Positions 11,356-49,036 of a DNA stretch of 55,712 nt are shown here, piece by piece. Position numbers and translations under genes: made by a program. The DNA lies in IMG/VR virus record IMGVR_UViG_3300040807_003706, positions 1 through 55,712 of that record; one strand, written 5' to 3'. The DNA comes from a virus. Each line of letters begins with the position of its first letter. The stretch's first letter is position 1. The notes under the pieces were generated by a model, which searched no databases, was not told where the DNA came from, and was given only the letters and a program-made list of their open reading frames with translations.

Positions 11356-12179
11356 TAGCCGTTGATTAATTTATCAAGGTTGGCAATTGCTTCATTGCGC
11401 AAAGCAGAGGACTGACGCACAGGGCTCTTCAGTTGGTCAATGCGCAATAAAAGCTGGCGCTTCTCATTGCTAAGTCTATCAATCTCAGCGTGCAAGTTCG
11501 CGAAATGCGTACTAACTGACATTGCGCGATTAATTTCGTCTTTCAACTCTGTATTTGCCTGCTTCAGCAGTTCAATTTCCTCTTGATAGCTAGCTATTTC
11601 TTGAATAAGAGAATCGGGGCCAATCCTTTTTTCAATGACGTGCTCAGTTTTAATTACCACTGGCTCAGAAGGTTTATGCGCCTTTTTTTGTGCTTGCGAT
11701 AAATTGGCAGCCAGTGCAGCAGCTTGACCTTTCGCCGCCGCTGCATTGCTTTCTGCTTCTGTTAGTTGCCGCAATAATTTTGTATTTTGCTCTTCAAGTA
11801 GCCTAACTTTTTCTTGCTCTTCGCTTAATTCGTTACGTAAAGCAATGTTTTCAAGAGCATCGCCTTTTCGCGCAACATTTTGACGCAATGTGCCCTGTCG
11901 TGAAACACCCCTTGCATCGTCAATTGTAATTTCCGAAATAGATGGCACTCTCCATCGCTCCATGTAAGTCAAACGAGTAATATCACCTGCGTCTTTCCAA
12001 TCCACAAAATATGGCATTCCGGCTGGACAAGGCGGTAATTCAATGTCCACCAAACCATCTTCCACTTTGAATGACAAATCTTTAGAAGGGGCGCCAATAA
12101 AGGCGCCCCCCGCCTTTACGTATAGCCGCCCATTTAACGCTCCATTGACTCCCTCTAAAAAGCCGACAATGCGTGTCAT
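11355..12179 (-). CDS. Coiled-coil tail protein
   Basis: 274 residues in two parts: a beta-rich N-domain (~1-85, with GRLYVKAGGAFIGAPSKDLS and PPCPAGMPYFVDWKDAG) and a long coiled coil (~110-265) with heptads such as LSEEQEKVRLLEEQNTKLLR and YQEEIELLKQANTELKDEIN. The coil could form a trimeric or hexameric rod in the tail tip. Position between the J-like tip protein cluster and the Ig-like adaptor supports a tip-to-fibre spacer. No enzymatic motif. Confidence 0.65.
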   Translation of the reverse strand: MTRIVGFLEGVNGALNGRLYVKAGGAFIGAPSKDLSFKVEDGLVDIELPPCPAGMPYFVDWKDAGDITRLTYMERWRVPSISEITIDDARGVSRQGTLRQNVARKGDALENIALRNELSEEQEKVRLLEEQNTKLLRQLTEAESNAAAAKGQAAALAANLSQAQKKAHKPSEPVVIKTEHVIEKRIGPDSLIQEIASYQEEIELLKQANTELKDEINRAMSVSTHFANLHAEIDRLSNEKRQLLLRIDQLKSPVRQSSALRNEAIANLDKLING

Positions 12180-36750: not shown

Positions 36751-36781
36751 ATTGGACTATCGCGTCCTACTTCCGCCTTTT

Positions 36782-36855
36782 GCCCTTGTAGCCCAATTGG
36801 TAGAGGCATCTGGTTTAAGCCCAGAAAAGTGTCAGTTCGAATCTGACCAAGGGCA
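36782..36855 (+). tRNA. tRNA with anticodon UAA (Leu codon UUA), short variable loop
   Basis: Acceptor GCCCTTG/CAAGGGC, D arm with AATTGGTA loop, anticodon stem TCTGG/CCAGA with loop TTTAAGC (U33, anticodon TAA, G37), five-base variable loop, T arm GTCAG-TTCGAAT-CTGAC, discriminator A. No CCA encoded (TCA follows). The UAA anticodon means leucine, but leucine tRNAs normally have a long variable arm and this one is class I in form. Confidence 0.88.
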
Positions 36856-36943
36856 TCATGCTAAGCTGAAGCAACGTTCGCTCCGGCAATGGAGTGCATG
36901 ACAATACGGCAGGGAACGGGGCCGTATTTCATCGGGAACCATC

Positions 36944-42515: not shown

Positions 42516-43523
42516 ATGTCTTTGTACATAGTCGATTTTGGTAGCCTCTTTTGGCACATTCTCAGCGTGCAAACAGGCACCATCACACAACTCTCTCCTG
42601 AACAGTTCCGTACACTTGCTTGGCTCCCCAATGGAGCCAAGCTCATCTGCGAAGCTGCTCACCTCGGCACACCACGCACTGATTTCAGCCTTGCACAGGT
42701 GTACACCGAACAAGAGCTCCTCTCTCTATACGCTGCGCTCACAGCTAAGGGCTGTGAGCTGCGCTTGTTCCCACAAGGCATCACGGCTAAAGCCAGAGCA
42801 ATGGCGGGGATTAATGATAAAAGTGATAAAGGCGATCTTCTCGCTATTGCTTACTACGTCCAAAAATTTCCCAACACGCCCCTTAAGCGCCCTCCTACAT
42901 CGTTCGTCACTGAACGTCGCGTAGAAGCTGGCTGGACGTTCAAAAAAGAAAACGATGGCATCCTCAATGTGGCCCGTCGTTTCAAATATTTTCGCCACGA
43001 TGACTACGTGGCATTGTTCGTCGAACGTAATTTCGACGAACTAGCCTCGCGCTTGTCAAACAATGCAAAGGAATTTGTCCATTTGTCCGACGACTATCGT
43101 TCCAGAAAAAAAGGCAAAAGCTGGAATCAAGACAGCACGCGCAAATCACGCATCTACACGCTTGCCGCATTGTTCCTGCATCCTGATGGCTACGCCCGCA
43201 GACGCCCTGACACTGGCACACTGCCAGGCATTAATTGGCTAAAGCGCTATGTGCTTCATTTCAGCCCTTTCCATTTCAAGGGCGGCATTGCACGCTCCAA
43301 TTTGAAATGGCATGCTTTCCGCAATGAAGCCATTAACGCCCTCGGCACTCGCAAGGCATCGTCAAAAGGCAAAGTGCTCTCGCATTACGATTTCAACGAT
43401 GACCAGCACGAGCAATTCCGTCAATGCCGGAAGGAATTCATGGGAGCCGTCACGGAAACCATGCAAACCATTCGCGATATGGTGCAGGAAAAGCTTGAAA
43501 ATGGAGAGCTTGTCCTCAAATAG
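42516..43523 (+). CDS. Protein with RuvC/RNase H-like N-terminal signature (putative)
   Basis: 335 residues. MSLYIVDFGSLFWHILSVQT (D7 on strand 1), GAKLICEAAHLGTPRTDFSL (E46 on a mid strand), and DKSDKGDLLAIAYYVQKF (D101, D104, D107) parallel RuvC/RNase H folds, where acids sit at 'D', 'E' and 'K..D..DA.AIA'. The remaining ~215 residues (positively charged, KFYF/RRRP rich) are not recognised. The reading as a resolvase or nuclease is inference; it may be inactive or a different family. It is the only plus gene near here and is followed by a gene-poor stretch. Confidence 0.55.
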   Translation: MSLYIVDFGSLFWHILSVQTGTITQLSPEQFRTLAWLPNGAKLICEAAHLGTPRTDFSLAQVYTEQELLSLYAALTAKGCELRLFPQGITAKARAMAGINDKSDKGDLLAIAYYVQKFPNTPLKRPPTSFVTERRVEAGWTFKKENDGILNVARRFKYFRHDDYVALFVERNFDELASRLSNNAKEFVHLSDDYRSRKKGKSWNQDSTRKSRIYTLAALFLHPDGYARRRPDTGTLPGINWLKRYVLHFSPFHFKGGIARSNLKWHAFRNEAINALGTRKASSKGKVLSHYDFNDDQHEQFRQCRKEFMGAVTETMQTIRDMVQEKLENGELVLK

Positions 43524-43859: not shown

Positions 43860-43989
43860 TCAGCTTTGCTTATGGCAGGCATAGGCAGCGCTTATGTTAC
43901 AGAGTGTGACAATTGGCTCGATCGGCGCCGATTCGCGGTAGACTGAGGCACGAGCGAGAGATCGCTCGCCCGACCCTCGACAATCCGCC

Positions 43990-44145
43990 ATGGCCTCCCC
44001 CTCGATCGCCGACCTGTTCGCGGCTCAGCTCGCAGAGCTCGAGAAGCGCCACCAGGAGAGCGAGAAGCGCCTCGAGAGAATGATCAGCAGCGTTCGCGGC
44101 ATGATCAGCGAGCTCGAGAGCATCGATTTGGAATCAGAATGCTGA
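43990..44145 (+). CDS. Small coiled-coil protein, 51 aa
   Basis: ATG at 43990, TGA 44143-44145. MASPSIADLFAAQLAELEKR HQESEKRLERMISSVRGMIS: a single amphipathic coil, probably dimerising. Uses the island's codon style (CTC, GAG, AGC). Followed by a very strong terminator, so it is its own short transcript. The LexA-like and Fur-like sites lie upstream. No family recognised; could bind a partner through the coil. Confidence 0.7.
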   Translation: MASPSIADLFAAQLAELEKRHQESEKRLERMISSVRGMISELESIDLESEC

Positions 44146-44153
44146 TCACAACT

Positions 44154-44179
44154 AGGATCCGATACGGATCCTTTTTTTT
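44154..44179 (+). terminator. Strong Rho-independent terminator
   Basis: AGGATCC-GATAC-GGATCCT followed by eight T. Ends the coiled-coil gene transcript before the iterons. Confidence 0.92.
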
Positions 44180-44190
44180 GGCCCGCACTG

Positions 44191-44258
44191 ATACGAAATC
44201 GTATCACGACAAGGCGCAATACGAAATCGTATCACGACAAGGCGCAATACGAAATCAG
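44191..44258. repeat. Tandem iterons (28-base unit, two full copies plus part of a third)
   Basis: A 28-base unit is repeated exactly at 44191-44218 and 44219-44246, and the first bases recur from 44247. Each unit carries the near-palindrome GATACGAAATCGTATC (arms GATACGA and TCGTATC) then ACGACAAGGCGCA. The repeated palindrome at fixed 28-base spacing is typical of replication initiator binding sites. Confidence 0.9.
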
Positions 44259-44280
44259 TTTTCCACAGGCCTGTGGAAAA
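44259..44280. promoter_or_regulatory. Back-to-back DnaA boxes in a perfect palindrome
   Basis: TTTTCCACAGG is followed directly by its exact reverse complement, CCTGTGGAAAA. TTTTCCACA is the DnaA box reported for cyanobacteria, so there are two boxes in opposite orientation. It adjoins the iterons. Confidence 0.75.
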
Positions 44281-44413
44281 CGTCGGTGATCCCCCATCTG
44301 GCGTCTATGCGTGTGGCAGCATAGGAAGCCACAGAAAGAAGCCCGCCACCCTACGGGAGGGGAGCGGGCTCTAAGAGATGTCTCTGAGGCCTCAGGAGAG
44401 GCGAGGAATAGGC

Positions 44414-44656
44414 TCAGGGGAGGTAGTTTCGGCCTCTGTTGTATCCGAGCCTGTCGAGCTTTTGGCGGGAGGAGAGGGAGCGAAGGCGAAGGAGCCAGAG
44501 GCCTGGGAGGCGAAGGGAGAGGAGGCCGAGCCATCCTGATTCTCTGGTGTGCCACGAGGAGAAGGAGACTAGGAAGGGGAGGCTAGGGGGAGCGGAGCGG
44601 GAGACGATGAGGAGGGAGCGAGAGGAGCGAGAGGGGAGACGGTAGGAGCGGATCAT
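44414..44656 (-). CDS. Island protein, 80 aa, Ser/Leu/Arg-rich
   Basis: Starts at ATG 44656, overlapping the stop of the preceding gene as ATGA. MIRSYRLPSRSSRSLLIVSR ... WHTRESGWLGLLSLRLPGLW then LDRLGYNRGRNYLP. The coupling supports it, but composition follows the pyrimidine-rich strand, so the reading could be coincidental. Last gene of the island operon. No family seen. Confidence 0.45.
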   Translation of the reverse strand: MIRSYRLPSRSSRSLLIVSRSAPPSLPFLVSFSSWHTRESGWLGLLSLRLPGLWLLRLRSLSSRQKLDRLGYNRGRNYLP

Positions 44657-44883
44657 AAGAGCGCCTCCTCTGCCTCGGTCTCTGCGCAGAGGCGAGCCTC
44701 TGAGAGCTGCTCCTCGAGCTGAGAGATGAGGCTCTGCAGAGTGTAGGAGCGGGAGACGGAGGCCTCCTCGAGCGCGTCATACAGGGAGGAGAGCGCCTCC
44801 TCTGCCTCCTCGAGGGAGGCGAAGGAGGCCAGCTCCTCATCGTGGCCGTAATGGGAGCGAGCTGTGAGAGAGAAGGGAGCCAT
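44653..44883 (-). CDS. Island coiled-coil protein, 76 aa
   Basis: ATG at 44883, four bases after the stop of the DUF7227-like gene. MAPFSLTARSHYGHDEELAS then EEAEEALSSLYDALEEASVS and LISQLEEQLSEARLCAETEA: acidic helical hairpin. Clear amphipathic repeats rather than random composition. Function unknown. Confidence 0.65.
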   Translation of the reverse strand: MAPFSLTARSHYGHDEELASFASLEEAEEALSSLYDALEEASVSRSYTLQSLISQLEEQLSEARLCAETEAEEALL

Positions 44884-44887
44884 GGCC

Positions 44888-46003
44888 TCAAATGCGAGAG
44901 AAGGCGAAGGAGCCGCCACCAGCCATGGGAGCGAAGGTGCCAGAGCCAGGAGCGAGAGCGAAGCGAGAGGCCGCCGAAGGATCGGCTCCTCTCGATCGCT
45001 TGAGGCGAAGGAGAACAGCGAGGCCAGAGAAGCCAGGAGCGGGAGACGGATCGAGCATCCTGAGATCGTTTGCATCTCCATCGACGCACTGGAGGAGCGC
45101 CTCTCTCCCTCGATCATCGCGGAGGAGGAGGGAGCGCGGGAGCTCCTCTCCCTTGCCGATCAGCACGGGCACTGCCAGAGAGAAGCCTGCCTCGATGGCA
45201 TCGAGAGCGCGAGAGGCTCCTCCCTCACGATCAGCAGCGAGGGATGCCGTGGTGTGGATCCCTGCCTCTCTCATGGCCAGGAGGCCAGAGCGGCCGTAGA
45301 GGGGAGCCTTCGCGTAGTCGTACAGCTCGAGGAAGGGTACAGAGGCGAGCGCCTCGGGGATGGTGCGGATGCCGCAATCTATGGGAGCGCCGAACAGAGC
45401 CGAGAGGCTCGCGGCCTCTGCAGGAGAGAGGCGAACAGAGAGCCAGGCCTCAGTCCATGGGAGCTCTTGAGTGCCGTTAAGGCGAAGCGCGAAGGGGAGG
45501 CCGAGGCGCCGAGCCTTGCGATAGGAGAGGCCAGCCGCCCATAGGACGGAGAGAACGAAGGCCTCACGATCCGCGAGGAGCGCGAGAGCGCGGCGAGCAC
45601 GACACGCGGGGATTGCTGGGCTCATGCCTCCGTGCCCACTGTATGCGAGACAAAGCTCCTGACAGGCCTCCGAGGCAAAGGGGCAAGCATTAAAGAGGAG
45701 AGCTCGAGCGGTGAGGCCTTCTCTGTCTGCCAGAGCACGGATGCCTGGGAGCTCTCCCCTCACGGGAGAGGCATGAGAGCCAGGGGAGACGGCTCGAGCG
45801 AGAGCGCGAGCAGGGGGGAGATGGAGTATGGCAGAGAAGGCGAGACCGCTCCCCTTCGCGAGCTTCGCATTAGCAGAGCCTGAGGTGAGAACAGAATCCA
45901 CAGAGAGGCCAAACCTAGCGAGGAGGGAGCGGACACGCTCAGGAGCGCGAGGAGCGCGAGAGAGGCGAGCGGGAGCGGGGGGAGCCAGGAGAGCGGGAGC
46001 CAT
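44888..46003 (-). CDS. DUF7227/GP88-like protein
   Basis: 371 residues. N-region SANAKLAKGSGLAFSAILHL, Cys cluster NACPFASEACQELCLAYSGHG, then CRARRALALLADREAF, RLNGTQELPWTEAW, FLELYDYAKAPLYG, AADREGGASRALDAIEAGFS LAVPVLI, and CVDGDANDLRMLDP ending AVLLRLKR. This order (C-P-x-A...C...C, RLN, YDYxK, DGDxxDxRxxDP) is that of DUF7227, related to mycobacteriophage Gp88, of unknown function; the Cys set may bind a metal or Fe-S. It is the only island gene assigned to a known family, which shows the island is genuinely coding. Confidence 0.85.
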   Translation of the reverse strand: MAPALLAPPAPARLSRAPRAPERVRSLLARFGLSVDSVLTSGSANAKLAKGSGLAFSAILHLPPARALARAVSPGSHASPVRGELPGIRALADREGLTARALLFNACPFASEACQELCLAYSGHGGMSPAIPACRARRALALLADREAFVLSVLWAAGLSYRKARRLGLPFALRLNGTQELPWTEAWLSVRLSPAEAASLSALFGAPIDCGIRTIPEALASVPFLELYDYAKAPLYGRSGLLAMREAGIHTTASLAADREGGASRALDAIEAGFSLAVPVLIGKGEELPRSLLLRDDRGREALLQCVDGDANDLRMLDPSPAPGFSGLAVLLRLKRSRGADPSAASRFALAPGSGTFAPMAGGGSFAFSRI

Positions 46004-46032
46004 GAGATCAGCAGAGAAGGAGGGGAGGGGGA

Positions 46033-46050
46033 GGCCTCCTCGCGGAGGCC
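46033..46050 (-). terminator. Intergenic hairpin GGCCTCC-TCGC-GGAGGCC
   Basis: Perfect 7-bp stem between the 85-residue gene and the DUF7227-like gene. No T-run, so it may act as RNA processing or stabilising element. One of a set of similar hairpins in the island. Confidence 0.5.
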
Positions 46051-46064
46051 ATGAGAGGGAGAGC

Positions 46065-46322
46065 TCAGGAGAGCAGCAGAGAGGCAGAGGCGAGAGGGAG
46101 CCAGAGGAGAAAGGCCTCGAGCTCTGGCAGGCTCTGGCTCTCGTGAGCGATCGAGGGGGAGGCCGTCTCGATCAGCAGGTAAGAGCCACGATCGAAGGCG
46201 AGGCGAAGGCCTCGCGAGAGCGCGAGGAGGGAGAGCAGAGGCGCGGCCTCAGAGGCGCGATCGATAGAAGGGGAGGAGAGCATGAGAGGAGCGAGGCGAA
46301 CAGAGAGAAGGCCTCCCCCCAT
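46065..46322 (-). CDS. Island protein, 85 aa
   Basis: ATG at 46322 sits in the loop of a hairpin (46310-46336). MGGGLLSVRLAPLMLSSPSI, then LSRGLRLAFDRGSYLLIETA and SLPELEAFLLWLPLASASLL with a hydrophobic tail. The upstream gene stops 20 bases before. A frame covering 46065-46676 also exists but would overlap two other genes. Function unknown. Confidence 0.5.
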   Translation of the reverse strand: MGGGLLSVRLAPLMLSSPSIDRASEAAPLLSLLALSRGLRLAFDRGSYLLIETASPSIAHESQSLPELEAFLLWLPLASASLLLS

Positions 46323-46336
46323 GGGAGGGGGAGGCC
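46310..46336 (-). promoter_or_regulatory. Hairpin enclosing a start codon
   Basis: GGCCTCCCCC/GGGGGAGGCC with the ATG of the 85-residue gene in the loop. Could limit or time its translation. Confidence 0.4.
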
Positions 46337-46342
46337 AGGAGC

Positions 46343-46582
46343 TCAGGAGCGAGCGGAGCGCGAGAGCTTCTCTGCAGCATCGCAGGAGGCAGCAGCAGCG
46401 AGAGCCACAGAGGCAGCAGCAGCGGAGGCGAACAGAGCGAAGGGAGCGGCGAAGGGAGCAGCGGCTCGAGCGGAGGGAGCTAGAGCGATGCGGTTGCCGT
46501 AGGAGGAGGCACAGAGGCCGAAAGCTACAGAGCCCGCGAACAGAGCGAGCGTAGGAGCGAGAGCGCGAACAGAGCGGAGCAT
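46343..46582 (-). CDS. Island membrane-like protein, 79 aa
   Basis: MLRSVRALAPTLALFAGSVA FGLCASSYGNRIALAPSARA, then PFAAPFALFASAAAASVALA AAASCDAAEKLS: two hydrophobic segments (~8-25 and ~42-65), Ala-rich, suggesting a small membrane protein with both termini on one side. Preceded by the shared leader GCTCTCTGTTCTC. Small-residue TM segments are reminiscent of holins, but that is only resemblance. Confidence 0.6.
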   Translation of the reverse strand: MLRSVRALAPTLALFAGSVAFGLCASSYGNRIALAPSARAAAPFAAPFALFASAAAASVALAAAASCDAAEKLSRSARS

Positions 46583-46611
46583 GAGAACAGAGAGCGAGAG
46601 GGAAGGAGAGC

Positions 46612-46631
46612 GGGAGGCCTCGCGGCCTCCC
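46612..46631 (-). terminator. Intergenic hairpin GGGAGGCC-TCGC-GGCCTCCC
   Basis: Perfect 8-bp stem between the 38-residue and 79-residue genes. Same loop (TCGC) and arms as others in the island. Confidence 0.55.
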
Positions 46632-46639
46632 TTGAGAGA

Positions 46640-46756
46640 TCAGAGAAGGGAGGAGCGGAGCCCTTGCCAGAGGCAAATAACGGCAGAGGAGTCGTAACGA
46701 CCGCCAGAGCCCTGAGCGTTAACGATGATCAGAGCGGAGATAAAGTCGAGAGCCAT
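46640..46756 (-). CDS. Island protein, 38 aa
   Basis: ATG at 46756 preceded by the leader GCTCTCTGTTCTC; TGA at 46640-46642. MALDFISALIIVNAQGSGGR YDSSAVICLWQGLRSSLL. Short, hydrophobic start then a Gly-rich turn. The shared leader supports translation. Function unknown. Confidence 0.5.
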   Translation of the reverse strand: MALDFISALIIVNAQGSGGRYDSSAVICLWQGLRSSLL

Positions 46757-46822
46757 GAGAACAGAGAGCGAAGGAGCGAGGCGATCTCTCGCCTCATGCA
46801 CGCAATGGTAAGGCCTCGAGAG

Positions 46823-46850
46823 GGGGAGGCCAGAGCCTCCCCTCTCCTTT
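46823..46850. terminator. Hairpin with short T-run
   Basis: GGGGAGGC-CAGA-GCCTCCCC; on the plus strand followed by TCTCCTTTT. It occupies the spacer between the 55-residue and 38-residue genes. Confidence 0.5.
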
Positions 46851-46875
46851 TGAAATATTTCGTAACAATCCGCGA

Positions 46876-47043
46876 TCAGAGATCAGCAGAGGAGAGCTCC
46901 TCGAGATCAGAGAGAAAGGCCTCGATCGTGGCAGACGGCAGCCACCTAGCGAGCTCCTCGAGGAGGAGAGGGAGGCCAGAGGAGGCGAGGCCGAGCTCCT
47001 CGGCGCGATCGAGGAGCCGAGCCCGCAGGTAGGAGGGGAGCAT
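46876..47043 (-). CDS. Island helical protein, 55 aa
   Basis: ATG at 47043, TGA at 46876. MLPSYLRARLLDRAEELGLA, then LPLLLEELARWLPSATIEAF LSDLEELSS: a compact amphipathic helix bundle with charged faces. Sits 11 bases after the 94-residue gene. Real-looking sequence despite low-complexity DNA. No family. Confidence 0.65.
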   Translation of the reverse strand: MLPSYLRARLLDRAEELGLASSGLPLLLEELARWLPSATIEAFLSDLEELSSADL

Positions 47044-47054
47044 GAGAGGGAGCC

Positions 47055-47339
47055 TCAGGAGGAGAGATCAGCAGCAGAGAAGGAGAGCGGGAGCTCGATC
47101 GCCAGAGGGAGGCCATGGCGAAGGCGAAGGAGGGAGCGCCTCTCCCGTAGGAGGCGCTCCTCGGCCTCGCCAGAGAGGCGAGGGAGGAGGCGCTCGATCG
47201 TGGCGAGGCGCCTCTCGAGGAGGGAGAGCTCCTCGCGAGGAGGGAGCGCGAGAATAGCCTCGAGCTCAGAGGGGGAGAGCTCGCGGCCTTCGCTCTCTAC
47301 GGCAGAGCAGAGCGAGGCAAGCTCAGAGGGGGAGAGCAT
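47055..47339 (-). CDS. Island coiled-coil protein, 94 aa
   Basis: MLSPSELASLCSAVESEGRE LSPSELEAI (two LSPSEL segments), then LSLLERRLATIERLLPRLSG EAEERLLRERRSLLRLRHGL. Heptad-rich, alternately acidic and basic. Probably oligomeric. Between the 65-residue and 55-residue genes in the same operon. Confidence 0.65.
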   Translation of the reverse strand: MLSPSELASLCSAVESEGRELSPSELEAILALPPREELSLLERRLATIERLLPRLSGEAEERLLRERRSLLRLRHGLPLAIELPLSFSAADLSS

Positions 47340-47348
47340 GGCAGAGCC

Positions 47349-47546
47349 TCAGGAGACGGGAGAGAACAGGAGGGAGAGAAGCTCCTCGAGCGCCTCCTCG
47401 GCCTCGGCTCGAGCGGTAGGAGAGAGCGAAGGGGAGGCGAGCTCCTCCTCAAGCTCGCGAGCGAACAGAGCGGCCTCACGGCGAGAGGAGAAAGAGAACC
47501 GAGGCCATGAGAGATCAGAGGCGCTGATCTCATGAGTGGGAGCCAT
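47349..47546 (-). CDS. Island protein, 65 aa
   Basis: ATG at 47546; MAPTHEISASDLSWPRFSFS SRREAALFARELEEELASPS LSPTARAEAEEAL, acidic helical. The longer frame from 47609 crosses a hairpin and lacks the ATG context; rejected as start. Gap of 9 bases to the next gene. Function unknown. Confidence 0.6.
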   Translation of the reverse strand: MAPTHEISASDLSWPRFSFSSRREAALFARELEEELASPSLSPTARAEAEEALEELLSLLFSPVS

Positions 47547-47581
47547 GGGAGCCAGAACAGAGAACAGAGAACAGAGAGAGG

Positions 47582-47599
47582 GGAGGCCTCGCGGCCTCC
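47582..47599 (-). terminator. Intergenic hairpin GGAGGCC-TCGC-GGCCTCC
   Basis: Perfect 7-bp stem between the first and second gene of the island operon, same TCGC loop as at 46033 and 46612. Confidence 0.55.
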
Positions 47600-47613
47600 T
47601 GCAGGGCATAGCC

Positions 47614-47988
47614 TCAGATGAGGCCGAGGCGAGAGGCGCGGCGAAGGAGAGCGGAGCGGGAGGCCTTCGCCAGAGAGGAGGAGCTCTCGCCTGCCTCGAT
47701 CAGCGCGGCGACCAGCAGAGCGCGAGGGGAGGCAGAGGAGAGAGGCTCAGGCAGAGCAGAGGCGAGGCGCTCGAGCCAGGAGGCCAGAGCGCGAAGGGAG
47801 GGAGCGAGACGGCCTCGAGCCTGCCAGAGGCGAGCGGCGAGAGCATGGCAGAGAGCCACAGAGAACAGGAGCGCCTCGAGAGCCTGAGCGGCGATCGTCT
47901 CCCATGGGAGAGAGGAGAGCGCCTCGATCAGATCAGAGAGAGGAGGGAAGGAGGGAGAGGCGGAGCCTCTGAGAGAGGGAGCGAGCAT
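47614..47988 (-). CDS. First gene of island operon, 124 aa, membrane-helix protein
   Basis: ATG at 47988 preceded by the shared leader GCTCTCTGTTCTC; frames further upstream run into the repeat array. MLAPSLRGSASPSFPPLSDL IEAL, one hydrophobic helix (LEALLFSVALCHALAARLW), then basic/hydrophobic helices (LRALASWLERLASALPEPLS, ALLRRASRLGLI). Likely membrane associated. The operator array lies 120-430 bases upstream. Confidence 0.6.
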   Translation of the reverse strand: MLAPSLRGSASPSFPPLSDLIEALSSLPWETIAAQALEALLFSVALCHALAARLWQARGRLAPSLRALASWLERLASALPEPLSSASPRALLVAALIEAGESSSSLAKASRSALLRRASRLGLI

Positions 47989-48109
47989 GAGAACAGAGAG
48001 CAGAGAACAGAGAGGCGATCTCTCGCCTCGATCGAGACAATACAGAGAAGGAGAGCGAGCGGGAGGCCTCTCCTCGCGGATTGTCACATCTCTTAACGTA
48101 TGCGGCCAT

Positions 48110-48305
48110 GCGCATAGGCGCATAGCCTCTCAGGCTCTCTTGTTGCAACTGATTCTCAATTGCGACTAGGCCCATGCGGGTATGCGCATAGGCGCATAGG
48201 CGCATAGGCGCATAATGGTGCAAACGTACTATGCGTGCTGGCGCATAGGCGCATAGGCGCATAATGGTGCAGGTGTACTATGCCGGTATGCGCATAGGCG
48301 CATAG
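48110..48305. repeat. GCGCATAGG tandem repeats in four clusters
   Basis: GGCGCATA units occur at 48110-48125, 48184-48215 (about four copies), 48240-48264 (about three) and 48290-48305 (two). The last three clusters each lead directly into a LexA-like box, giving a compound unit of roughly 45 bases. Confidence 0.9.
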
Positions 48306-48321
48306 TGGTGCAGGTGTACTA
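48216..48321. promoter_or_regulatory. Three degenerate LexA-like boxes
   Basis: TGGTGCAAACGTACTA at 48216-48231, TGGTGCAGGTGTACTA at 48265-48280 and 48306-48321. Right half (GTACT) matches the cyanobacterial LexA box; left half is GGTGC rather than RGTAC. Confidence 0.65.
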
Positions 48322-48329
48322 CTGCTTAT

Positions 48330-48344
48330 TGAGAATGATTCTCA
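48330..48344. promoter_or_regulatory. Fur-box-like palindrome, right flank
   Basis: TGAGAAT-G-ATTCTCA, a perfect 7-1-7 palindrome, followed by TTATCA. Close to the Fur-box pattern. It lies between two LexA-like boxes, mirroring the left flank. Confidence 0.5.
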
Positions 48345-48357
48345 TTATCAAAAAAAG

Positions 48358-48413
48358 TAGTACAAATGTACTATCGGTAGTACAAATGTACTATCGGTAG
48401 TACAAGCGTACCA
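48358..48413. promoter_or_regulatory. Three LexA (SOS) boxes at 20-base spacing
   Basis: TAGTACAAATGTACTA at 48358-48373 and 48378-48393, and TAGTACAAGCGTACCA at 48398-48413. The first two fit the cyanobacterial LexA consensus RGTACNNNDGTWCB exactly; the third deviates in the spacer end and last half. Spacing is exactly 20 bases, so bound dimers would lie nearly on the same helix face. Confidence 0.75.
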
Positions 48414-48498: not shown

Positions 48499-48573
48499 TT
48501 ACCGCTTTTTGGCGAGTCCCAGGCACAGCCAAGCCCAGGCTGCAAGAGAAATCAAAAGAAGGAGAAAAATCAC
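48499..48573 (-). CDS. Possible 24-aa membrane peptide
   Basis: GTG start overlapping the previous stop. MIFLLLLISLAAWAWLCLGL AKKR: one hydrophobic helix with a basic end. Very short, so it could be coincidental. Confidence 0.3.
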   Translation of the reverse strand: MIFLLLLISLAAWAWLCLGLAKKR

Positions 48574-48728
48574 CAGCCATGACCATCAAAGGCTGCCTTG
48601 ATGGCAGCCTCTTCATCAGAAAAAGGGCCGCCAATGATTGAATCATCATCATCGGCATAAAAATACCAACCTTCGACGAGTTCAGTGCCTTTGCAGGCAG
48701 ATTCCGAGAAAAAGTCAATGAGAATCAT
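48570..48728 (-). CDS. Small acidic protein, 52 aa
   Basis: ATG at 48728, TGA 48570-48572. MILIDFFSESACKGTELVEG WYFYADDDDSIIGGPFSDEE AAIKAAF. The motif 'W.FY.d....iiGPFsdeeeA' is seen in cyanobacterial and cyanophage small proteins. Two bases after the stop of the preceding gene. Function unknown. An overlapping 80-residue frame is rejected as less protein-like. Confidence 0.7.
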   Translation of the reverse strand: MILIDFFSESACKGTELVEGWYFYADDDDSIIGGPFSDEEAAIKAAFDGHGW

Positions 48729-48730
48729 CT

Positions 48731-49036
48731 TCAAGGTCTCTTAAATCGGCGTAAGTTGTTTTTCCAACTAAGTTCGCTCATTTCACCAGGGCGATAGAGG
48801 GAATAGGCAGGTTTGCCTAAAACCATCCCGCCTTCACCATCGTCAATGGGCTCAGCTTCATCGAGCCACATGCCAAGGCATTCAGAATCGTCGTTAAACA
48901 CGGCGACAGCCTGATCGCCATCCTCCATGCACACGCGAATGTGCATCAGCAGCTCCTTGAGGGAAGCTGCTTGATATTGTCCTTGAGTGGGGCTGAAATA
49001 GGGACCGTTGCTGGAGTAGTTACAGATGAAACGCAT
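48731..49036 (-). CDS. Hypothetical protein, 101 aa
   Basis: MRFICNYSSNGPYFSPTQGQ YQAASLKELLMHIRVCMEDG, then AVAVFNDDSECLGMWLDEAE. Alpha-beta composition, 'AVFNDD' strand-turn. Located just downstream of TATATA tracts that could form its promoter. No family recognised. Confidence 0.65.
   Translation of the reverse strand: MRFICNYSSNGPYFSPTQGQYQAASLKELLMHIRVCMEDGDQAVAVFNDDSECLGMWLDEAEPIDDGEGGMVLGKPAYSLYRPGEMSELSWKNNLRRFKRP

Follow-up and report, generated by a model that had tools for sequence, protein, structure and literature searches.

The window analysed here is the whole 55,712-nt stretch (positions 1–55,712) of IMG/VR record IMGVR_UViG_3300040807_003706. Outside the region described below, it is collinear with Synechococcus phage S-CBS4 (HQ698895) over most of its length (tblastx), including the terminase, portal, capsid and tail genes; the virus is an S-CBS4-like cyanosiphovirus of picocyanobacteria. 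At 44.0–48.1 kb lies a sharply bounded island in which the GC fraction rises from about 0.50 outside to 0.60–0.67, with a GC skew of +0.2 to +0.27 and an AT skew of up to +0.5. The bounds were taken from the maximal-likelihood segment of a two-state dinucleotide-Markov segmentation of the 55.7-kb window. The core (cassette A) is a single segment of 890 nats, almost thirty times stronger than the runner-up (43,919–44,126, 31 nats), which is a small plus-strand gene. GC, skews and segmentation thus bear out the first-pass annotation, which had described the block at about 43.9–48.1 kb as unlike the rest of the genome.

Ten ORFs are called on the minus strand of the island, and its mRNA is therefore pyrimidine-rich; the sole plus-strand gene is the 51-codon gP at the left edge, followed by a GGATCC hairpin and a T8 terminator (Table 1). 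In every called gene, codon position 3 holds most of the differences between the window and its relatives, so the called genes code, as first supposed. The narrow codon use that had been noticed is also present (GAG 49 of 52 Glu codons, CTC 119 of 154 Leu codons; both totals are slightly low, with three small genes counted short). CTC is indeed the main Leu codon, although 'almost only CTC' somewhat overstates its 77% share. A tRNA-Leu gene at 36,781–36,857 has the anticodon TAA, though Leu in the island is encoded mainly by CTC and not TTA.

Table 1. Features of the island and its edges (window coordinates)
Feature	Position	Strand	Basis
Core of island (cassette A), private dinucleotide dialect	44355..48080	.	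Markov segmentation and composition
HLR1-like direct-repeat box GTTACAGAGTGTGACAAT, putative inward promoter of gP	43896..43913	+	14/16 consensus positions; conserved in relatives
gP, 51 aa, predicted coiled-coil-like	43990..44145	+	homologues 29–87% identity in relatives; position-3 excess
28-bp iteron x2.4 and palindrome TTTTCCACAGGCCTGTGGAAAA (DnaA-box-like)	44191..44281	.	window only; gap in 10/10 aligned relatives
g10, 80-aa ORF, overlaps g9 stop (ATGA)	44414..44656	-	similar in 15 relatives; weak position-3 signal
g9, 76 aa, acidic helical protein	44653..44883	-	relatives; position-3 excess
GP88 family protein, 371 aa (PF17338, PHROG 1617), invariant CX6CX3C	44888..46003	-	Pfam/PHROGs; model pLDDT 79.5
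g7, 72 aa	46065..46283	-	relatives; position-3 excess
g6, 79 aa, hydrophobic, membrane-like	46343..46582	-	relatives; position-3 excess
g5, 38 aa	46640..46756	-	position-3 comparison with 2 relatives only
Internal HLR1-like box GTTACGAAATATTTCAAA, putative second promoter ahead of g5	46849..46866	-	13/16; counterparts in relatives
g4, 55 aa	46876..47043	-	81–98% identity in at least 20 relatives
g3, 94 aa	47055..47339	-	relatives; position-3 excess
g2, 65 aa	47349..47546	-	relatives; position-3 excess
g1, 124 aa, first gene of the operon	47614..47988	-	relatives; position-3 excess
Operon promoter: box GTTAAGAGATGTGACAAT (48097-48080), 37 nt, TATTGT (48042-48037)	48037..48097	-	aligned in 14 sequences

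Boxes facing inward stand at both island edges (GTTACAGAGTGTGACAAT and GTTAAGAGATGTGACAAT) and are kept in relatives. The consensus of HLR1, the element bound by RpaB, is (G/T)TTACA(T/A)(T/A)NN(G/T)TTACA(T/A)(T/A) (PMC11633204); GTTACAGAGTGTGACAAT matches it at 14 of 16 positions, the internal box GTTACGAAATATTTCAAA at 13 and GTTAAGAGATGTGACAAT, the main box in the operon promoter, at 12. The respective chance rates per 130 nt are 0.0008, 0.011 and 0.07, so that the score of the main box is reached by chance in 7% of such stretches; as a sequence match, only GTTACAGAGTGTGACAAT appears clearly beyond chance. The operon would be read from these inward promoters, and host RpaB might act through the boxes. 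Each intercistronic gap examined contains a hairpin of 7–11 bp and then an open CU-rich leader ahead of the ATG, mostly with no Shine-Dalgarno sequence; the distinctive leader and hairpin style reported at first reading is thus real. Concerted evolution of the leaders was considered and rejected, the mean distance within a genome (7.27 of 14) being no closer than that between orthologous leaders (6.69).

Also at the right edge (48,140–48,345) lie palindromes of the TTGAGAATGATTCTCATT type, similar to Fur boxes, together with GCGCATAG in tandem repeat (a 49-bp unit, 2.4 copies); both vary in relatives. At 48,359–48,412 there are three palindromes of the AGTACAAATGTACT type, which we take to be like the cyanobacterial LexA box; in most of the relatives that were checked, those with DUF7227 included, boxes of this kind lie next to the cassette.

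GP88 is the only island product with a named family: none was assigned to the others when the larger ORFs were scanned with Pfam and PHROGs, and the antisense plus-strand ORFs had no family match in these scans. The window protein matches PF17338 at 33.8 bits (E 4e-8), above the curated cut-off of 24.4 bits, and Pfam gives it no match to DUF7227 (PF23872). The initial label 'DUF7227/GP88-like' is therefore correct in its GP88 part, whereas DUF7227 is the gene of another cassette found at the same locus (the protein of contig L047 matches it at 1e-77). The two proteins have a similar motif order, with an hhalign pairwise E of 0.03 and a probability of 1.6%, and homology between them is only suggestive. 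Searches of solved structures by sequence returned nothing for GP88 and nothing useful for DUF7227; NCBIfam has no family for GP88, and the collection of papers searched had none on DUF7227. The predicted model of DUF7227 is of poor quality and looks like a generic TIM barrel. The predicted GP88 model is barrel-like and Cys-rich. The nine best VIA rows of its fold search are all radical-SAM enzymes, at weak Z scores of only 4.5–5.3, and Foldseek gave no PDB match below 0.001. Because the canonical radical-SAM motif CX3CX2C is absent, GP88 is not filed under that superfamily, and a radical-SAM-like role is only a guess.

The composition of the island amounts to a private dialect, in which each base tends to precede its transition partner (GA, AG, CT and TC, at 1.55–2.03 of expectation) and AC and GT are avoided (about 0.38). 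The dialect score is 2.5–5.0 inside the island and 0.65–1.18 in all other kilobases of the window. Base identity is low at lag 1 (0.72–0.88) and high at lag 2 (1.16–1.26) with no longer periodicity; tandem slippage is not supported as a source, since identity is raised at lag 2 (about 1.2) but stays near 1 at most lags from 4 to 8. Against codon shuffles that hold protein and codon use fixed, the bias across codon junctions stands out (z of +9.0 for TC, +8.6 for CT, +6.5 for AG, +5.8 for GA, -4.5 for AC and -3.0 for GT), with the same signs in four distant relatives, and the dialect is also visible in untranslated gaps. It thus acts on the nucleic acid, at coding, codon-junction and intergenic bases. 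The HIP1 sequence (GCGATCGC) does not occur in the window island. When other dialect islands were sought by means of the leader motif, 59 stretches were retrieved; high dialect scores were confined to members of the same cassette family.

These measurements bear directly on the idea that codons optimised for the host, or for high expression, produced the composition. Codons ending in C dominate, and GC-rich picocyanobacteria have a GC content close to that of the island. Nevertheless, GAT is used over GAC (18 vs 5), Thr and Val account for only 1.8% and 2.4% of cassette residues (Leu, Ala and Ser for 19%, 18% and 13%), and neither the junction bias with fixed amino acids and codons nor the bias of the untranslated gaps would follow from codon choice. 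We consider this explanation very unlikely.

The island occupies an exchange locus between a small conserved gene pair (48,570–49,036) and the ribonucleotide reductase (RNR) block. Both flanks are spanned by 43 distinct contigs (50 loci), of which 42 carry exactly one cassette type and none carries two: 19 GP88-A, 1 GP88-B, 5 GP88-C, 17 DUF7227 and 1 neither. GP88 or DUF7227 served as the bait by which most of these contigs were retrieved; the sample collected with less bias is small. The locus therefore hosts at least four alternative, mutually exclusive cassettes (three GP88 lineages and DUF7227) in S-CBS4-like cyanosiphoviruses. Contig L047, for example, has flanks with 84–89% nucleotide identity to the window on both sides of an unrelated 2.3-kb DUF7227 cassette of ordinary composition. 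In L045, nearby sequence is about 77–87% identical to the window, with a GP88 of only 50% identity in a block of 70% GC that is biased differently. GP88 genes of ordinary composition (L046, L143–L148) and DUF7227 (L118–L140) occupy the same position. GP88 of cassette C, ordinary in composition, still aligns with that of cassette A over 233 columns (hhalign E 2.4e-27).

In the contig with neither gene (L048, 5,639–11,485), the locus contains other ORFs, including one of 238 aa and HNH-like ones, and is possibly a fifth cassette. A 335-aa plus-strand gene at 42,516–43,523 of the window, with no family, is 93% identical in L047 and 44–76% identical in several contigs with the DUF7227 cassette and a few others.

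A relative of the window GP88 is encoded by 30 IMG/VR contigs, nearly all close, and almost all of these contigs share the high-GC, pyrimidine-coding block between ordinary flanks. The first-pass annotation had named relatives with the same block and composition as something that would tell against its reading; these were looked for, and the same block, gene order and composition are present in about 30 contigs. Besides the window, 19 other contigs span the island with the same neighbours and composition. An assembly chimera might have been suspected, given that three metagenome contigs stop within the island or at its edge and that, in one sample, a hairpin near 48.0 kb lies between the end of one contig and the start of another. 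Because relatives carry the same block, composition and neighbours, and many independent contigs cross both edges, chimerism is excluded, with a vanishingly small probability. The likely cause of these breaks, as of the gap in the S-CBS4 record described below, is the difficulty of sequencing or assembling a block so rich in GC and hairpins.

Phylogeny indicates that the cassette travels. Between the window and L006, GP88 is 94% identical in amino acids with a fourfold-site difference of 0.25, and RNR is 72% identical with a difference of 0.60; in L011, RNR groups with S-CBS4 and L047 and GP88 groups with the window. This conflict between the two gene trees means that the cassette is passed from one phage to another within the group; RNR may itself recombine, and the trees do not fix the direction and partner of each transfer. 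Judged from these trees, related phages have exchanged cassette A as one unit, presumably by homologous recombination in the flanks. The proposal of a coding operon of its own is upheld. That of a horizontally acquired cassette stands as regards transfer between related phages (tree conflict, shared flanks), but the cassette is not a recent arrival.

Recent import from a GC-rich organism, with the phage composition not yet adopted, would fit both the strong compositional contrast and the mobility of the cassette. Imported genes are usually expected to drift to the composition of the new genome. Against such an import, relatives that differ from the window at 0.54–0.63 of fourfold sites (L027–L030) all keep the dialect. 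This is near saturation for the island composition (about 0.65, by our estimate); the dialect is therefore maintained, rather than being a fading foreign signature. In addition, no relative of GP88 was found in 84,980 prokaryote genomes or in plasmids, and an isolate-phage collection gave three distant hits only. The import reading is largely refuted, and we rate it as quite unlikely.

The first-pass suggestion that the phage keeps an intact satellite or captured plasmid could draw on the size of about 4.2 kb and on the origin-like iterons at the left edge, with their perfect palindrome of two TTTTCCACA boxes. These motifs are absent from all ten aligned relatives, so a replication origin in the island was rejected as a candidate. 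The larger ORFs, searched with Pfam and PHROGs, revealed no replication, integration, mobilisation or packaging gene, and GP88 lacks a plasmid relative. The suggestion does not survive, being highly improbable.

Another possibility is a regional mutation process that imposes the dialect on whatever lies at this genome position. The bias affects junction and intergenic bases as well and stops sharply at the edges, as such a process would predict. However, cassettes C and D are ordinary at the same position, which argues against a purely positional cause, and cassette B is biased differently. In the cassette B block, at 12,000–14,500 of L045, GGCC occurs 36 times per kb, TG/CA is favoured and TC and CG are disfavoured; the block carries another strong dialect, unlike that of cassette A. 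In the hybrid L059, dialect genes g1, g4 and g6 are followed by an ordinary-composition DUF7227 at the GP88 site (about 81% identical to other DUF7227) and then by dialect again, although this DUF7227 may be newly arrived. A regional process is thus unlikely. A heritable property under selection, or a process tied to the cassette lineage, is more likely than a general regional effect, and none of the causes examined accounts for the dialect.

Our preferred reading, to which we give a probability of about 0.62, is that of an exchanged cassette with a maintained dialect: an operon with inward promoters that would encode a GP88 enzyme, replaceable by DUF7227, and its helpers. During infection, GP88 would act as a metal-cluster barrel enzyme and modify a target in the host or a nucleic acid; the small co-expressed proteins may assist it, and DUF7227 could replace it. 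Here, a mobile operon keeps extreme neighbour-base rules at near-saturating divergence, strongly enough to alter protein composition, and homologues at the same locus lack them. Keeping the dialect in a moving operon requires either a mutational process linked to the cassette or selection on the nucleic-acid sequence, both of which can be tested. The dialect might itself be functional: the cassette would avoid AC/GT and doubled-base steps because these steps flag nucleic acid to the protein that it encodes, or to a nuclease or modification system linked with it. This is a speculative and rather doubtful idea; if it holds, the operon would be immune to the activity that it encodes, and the other cassettes would represent different activities with different dialects or none.

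Comparison with known systems begins with S-CBS4, which matches the rest of the window. Its 69,420-bp record starts at window position ~41,157 and stops at ~48,833, leaving out the island region, so that the published genome of the only isolated relative has a gap at this locus. The nominally complete record stops inside an ORF (...ECIGMWLDEAEPVDDGEV) that goes on for about 33 more residues in the window. The record probably lacks about 7.7 kb or the equivalent, although S-CBS4 may truly be without the island. With the locus probably missing from the reference genome of the group and contigs tending to break there, the gene may be undercounted in surveys. Relative to the GP88 family (PF17338, PHROG 1617), the window protein shares the Cys cluster and the NGT, YDYxK and GDxxDxR motifs with members of ordinary composition; it differs in being longer, with extra segments and an extreme amino-acid make-up. 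Among viral models, its predicted structure matches GP88 proteins and a phage Gp37/Gp68-like protein (BFVD; E 3.6e-10, target TM 0.75), which is only 18% identical to it and whose own function is likewise unproven. Like other mosaic exchange loci of phages, this one holds mutually exclusive modules at one position, with a history unlike that of the flanks; here, in contrast, all contigs sampled but one carry a GP88-family or DUF7227 gene, and one cassette lineage keeps its own nucleic-acid dialect. The locus is thus of an ordinary kind for phages, and its unusual feature is the dialect of one of its cassettes.
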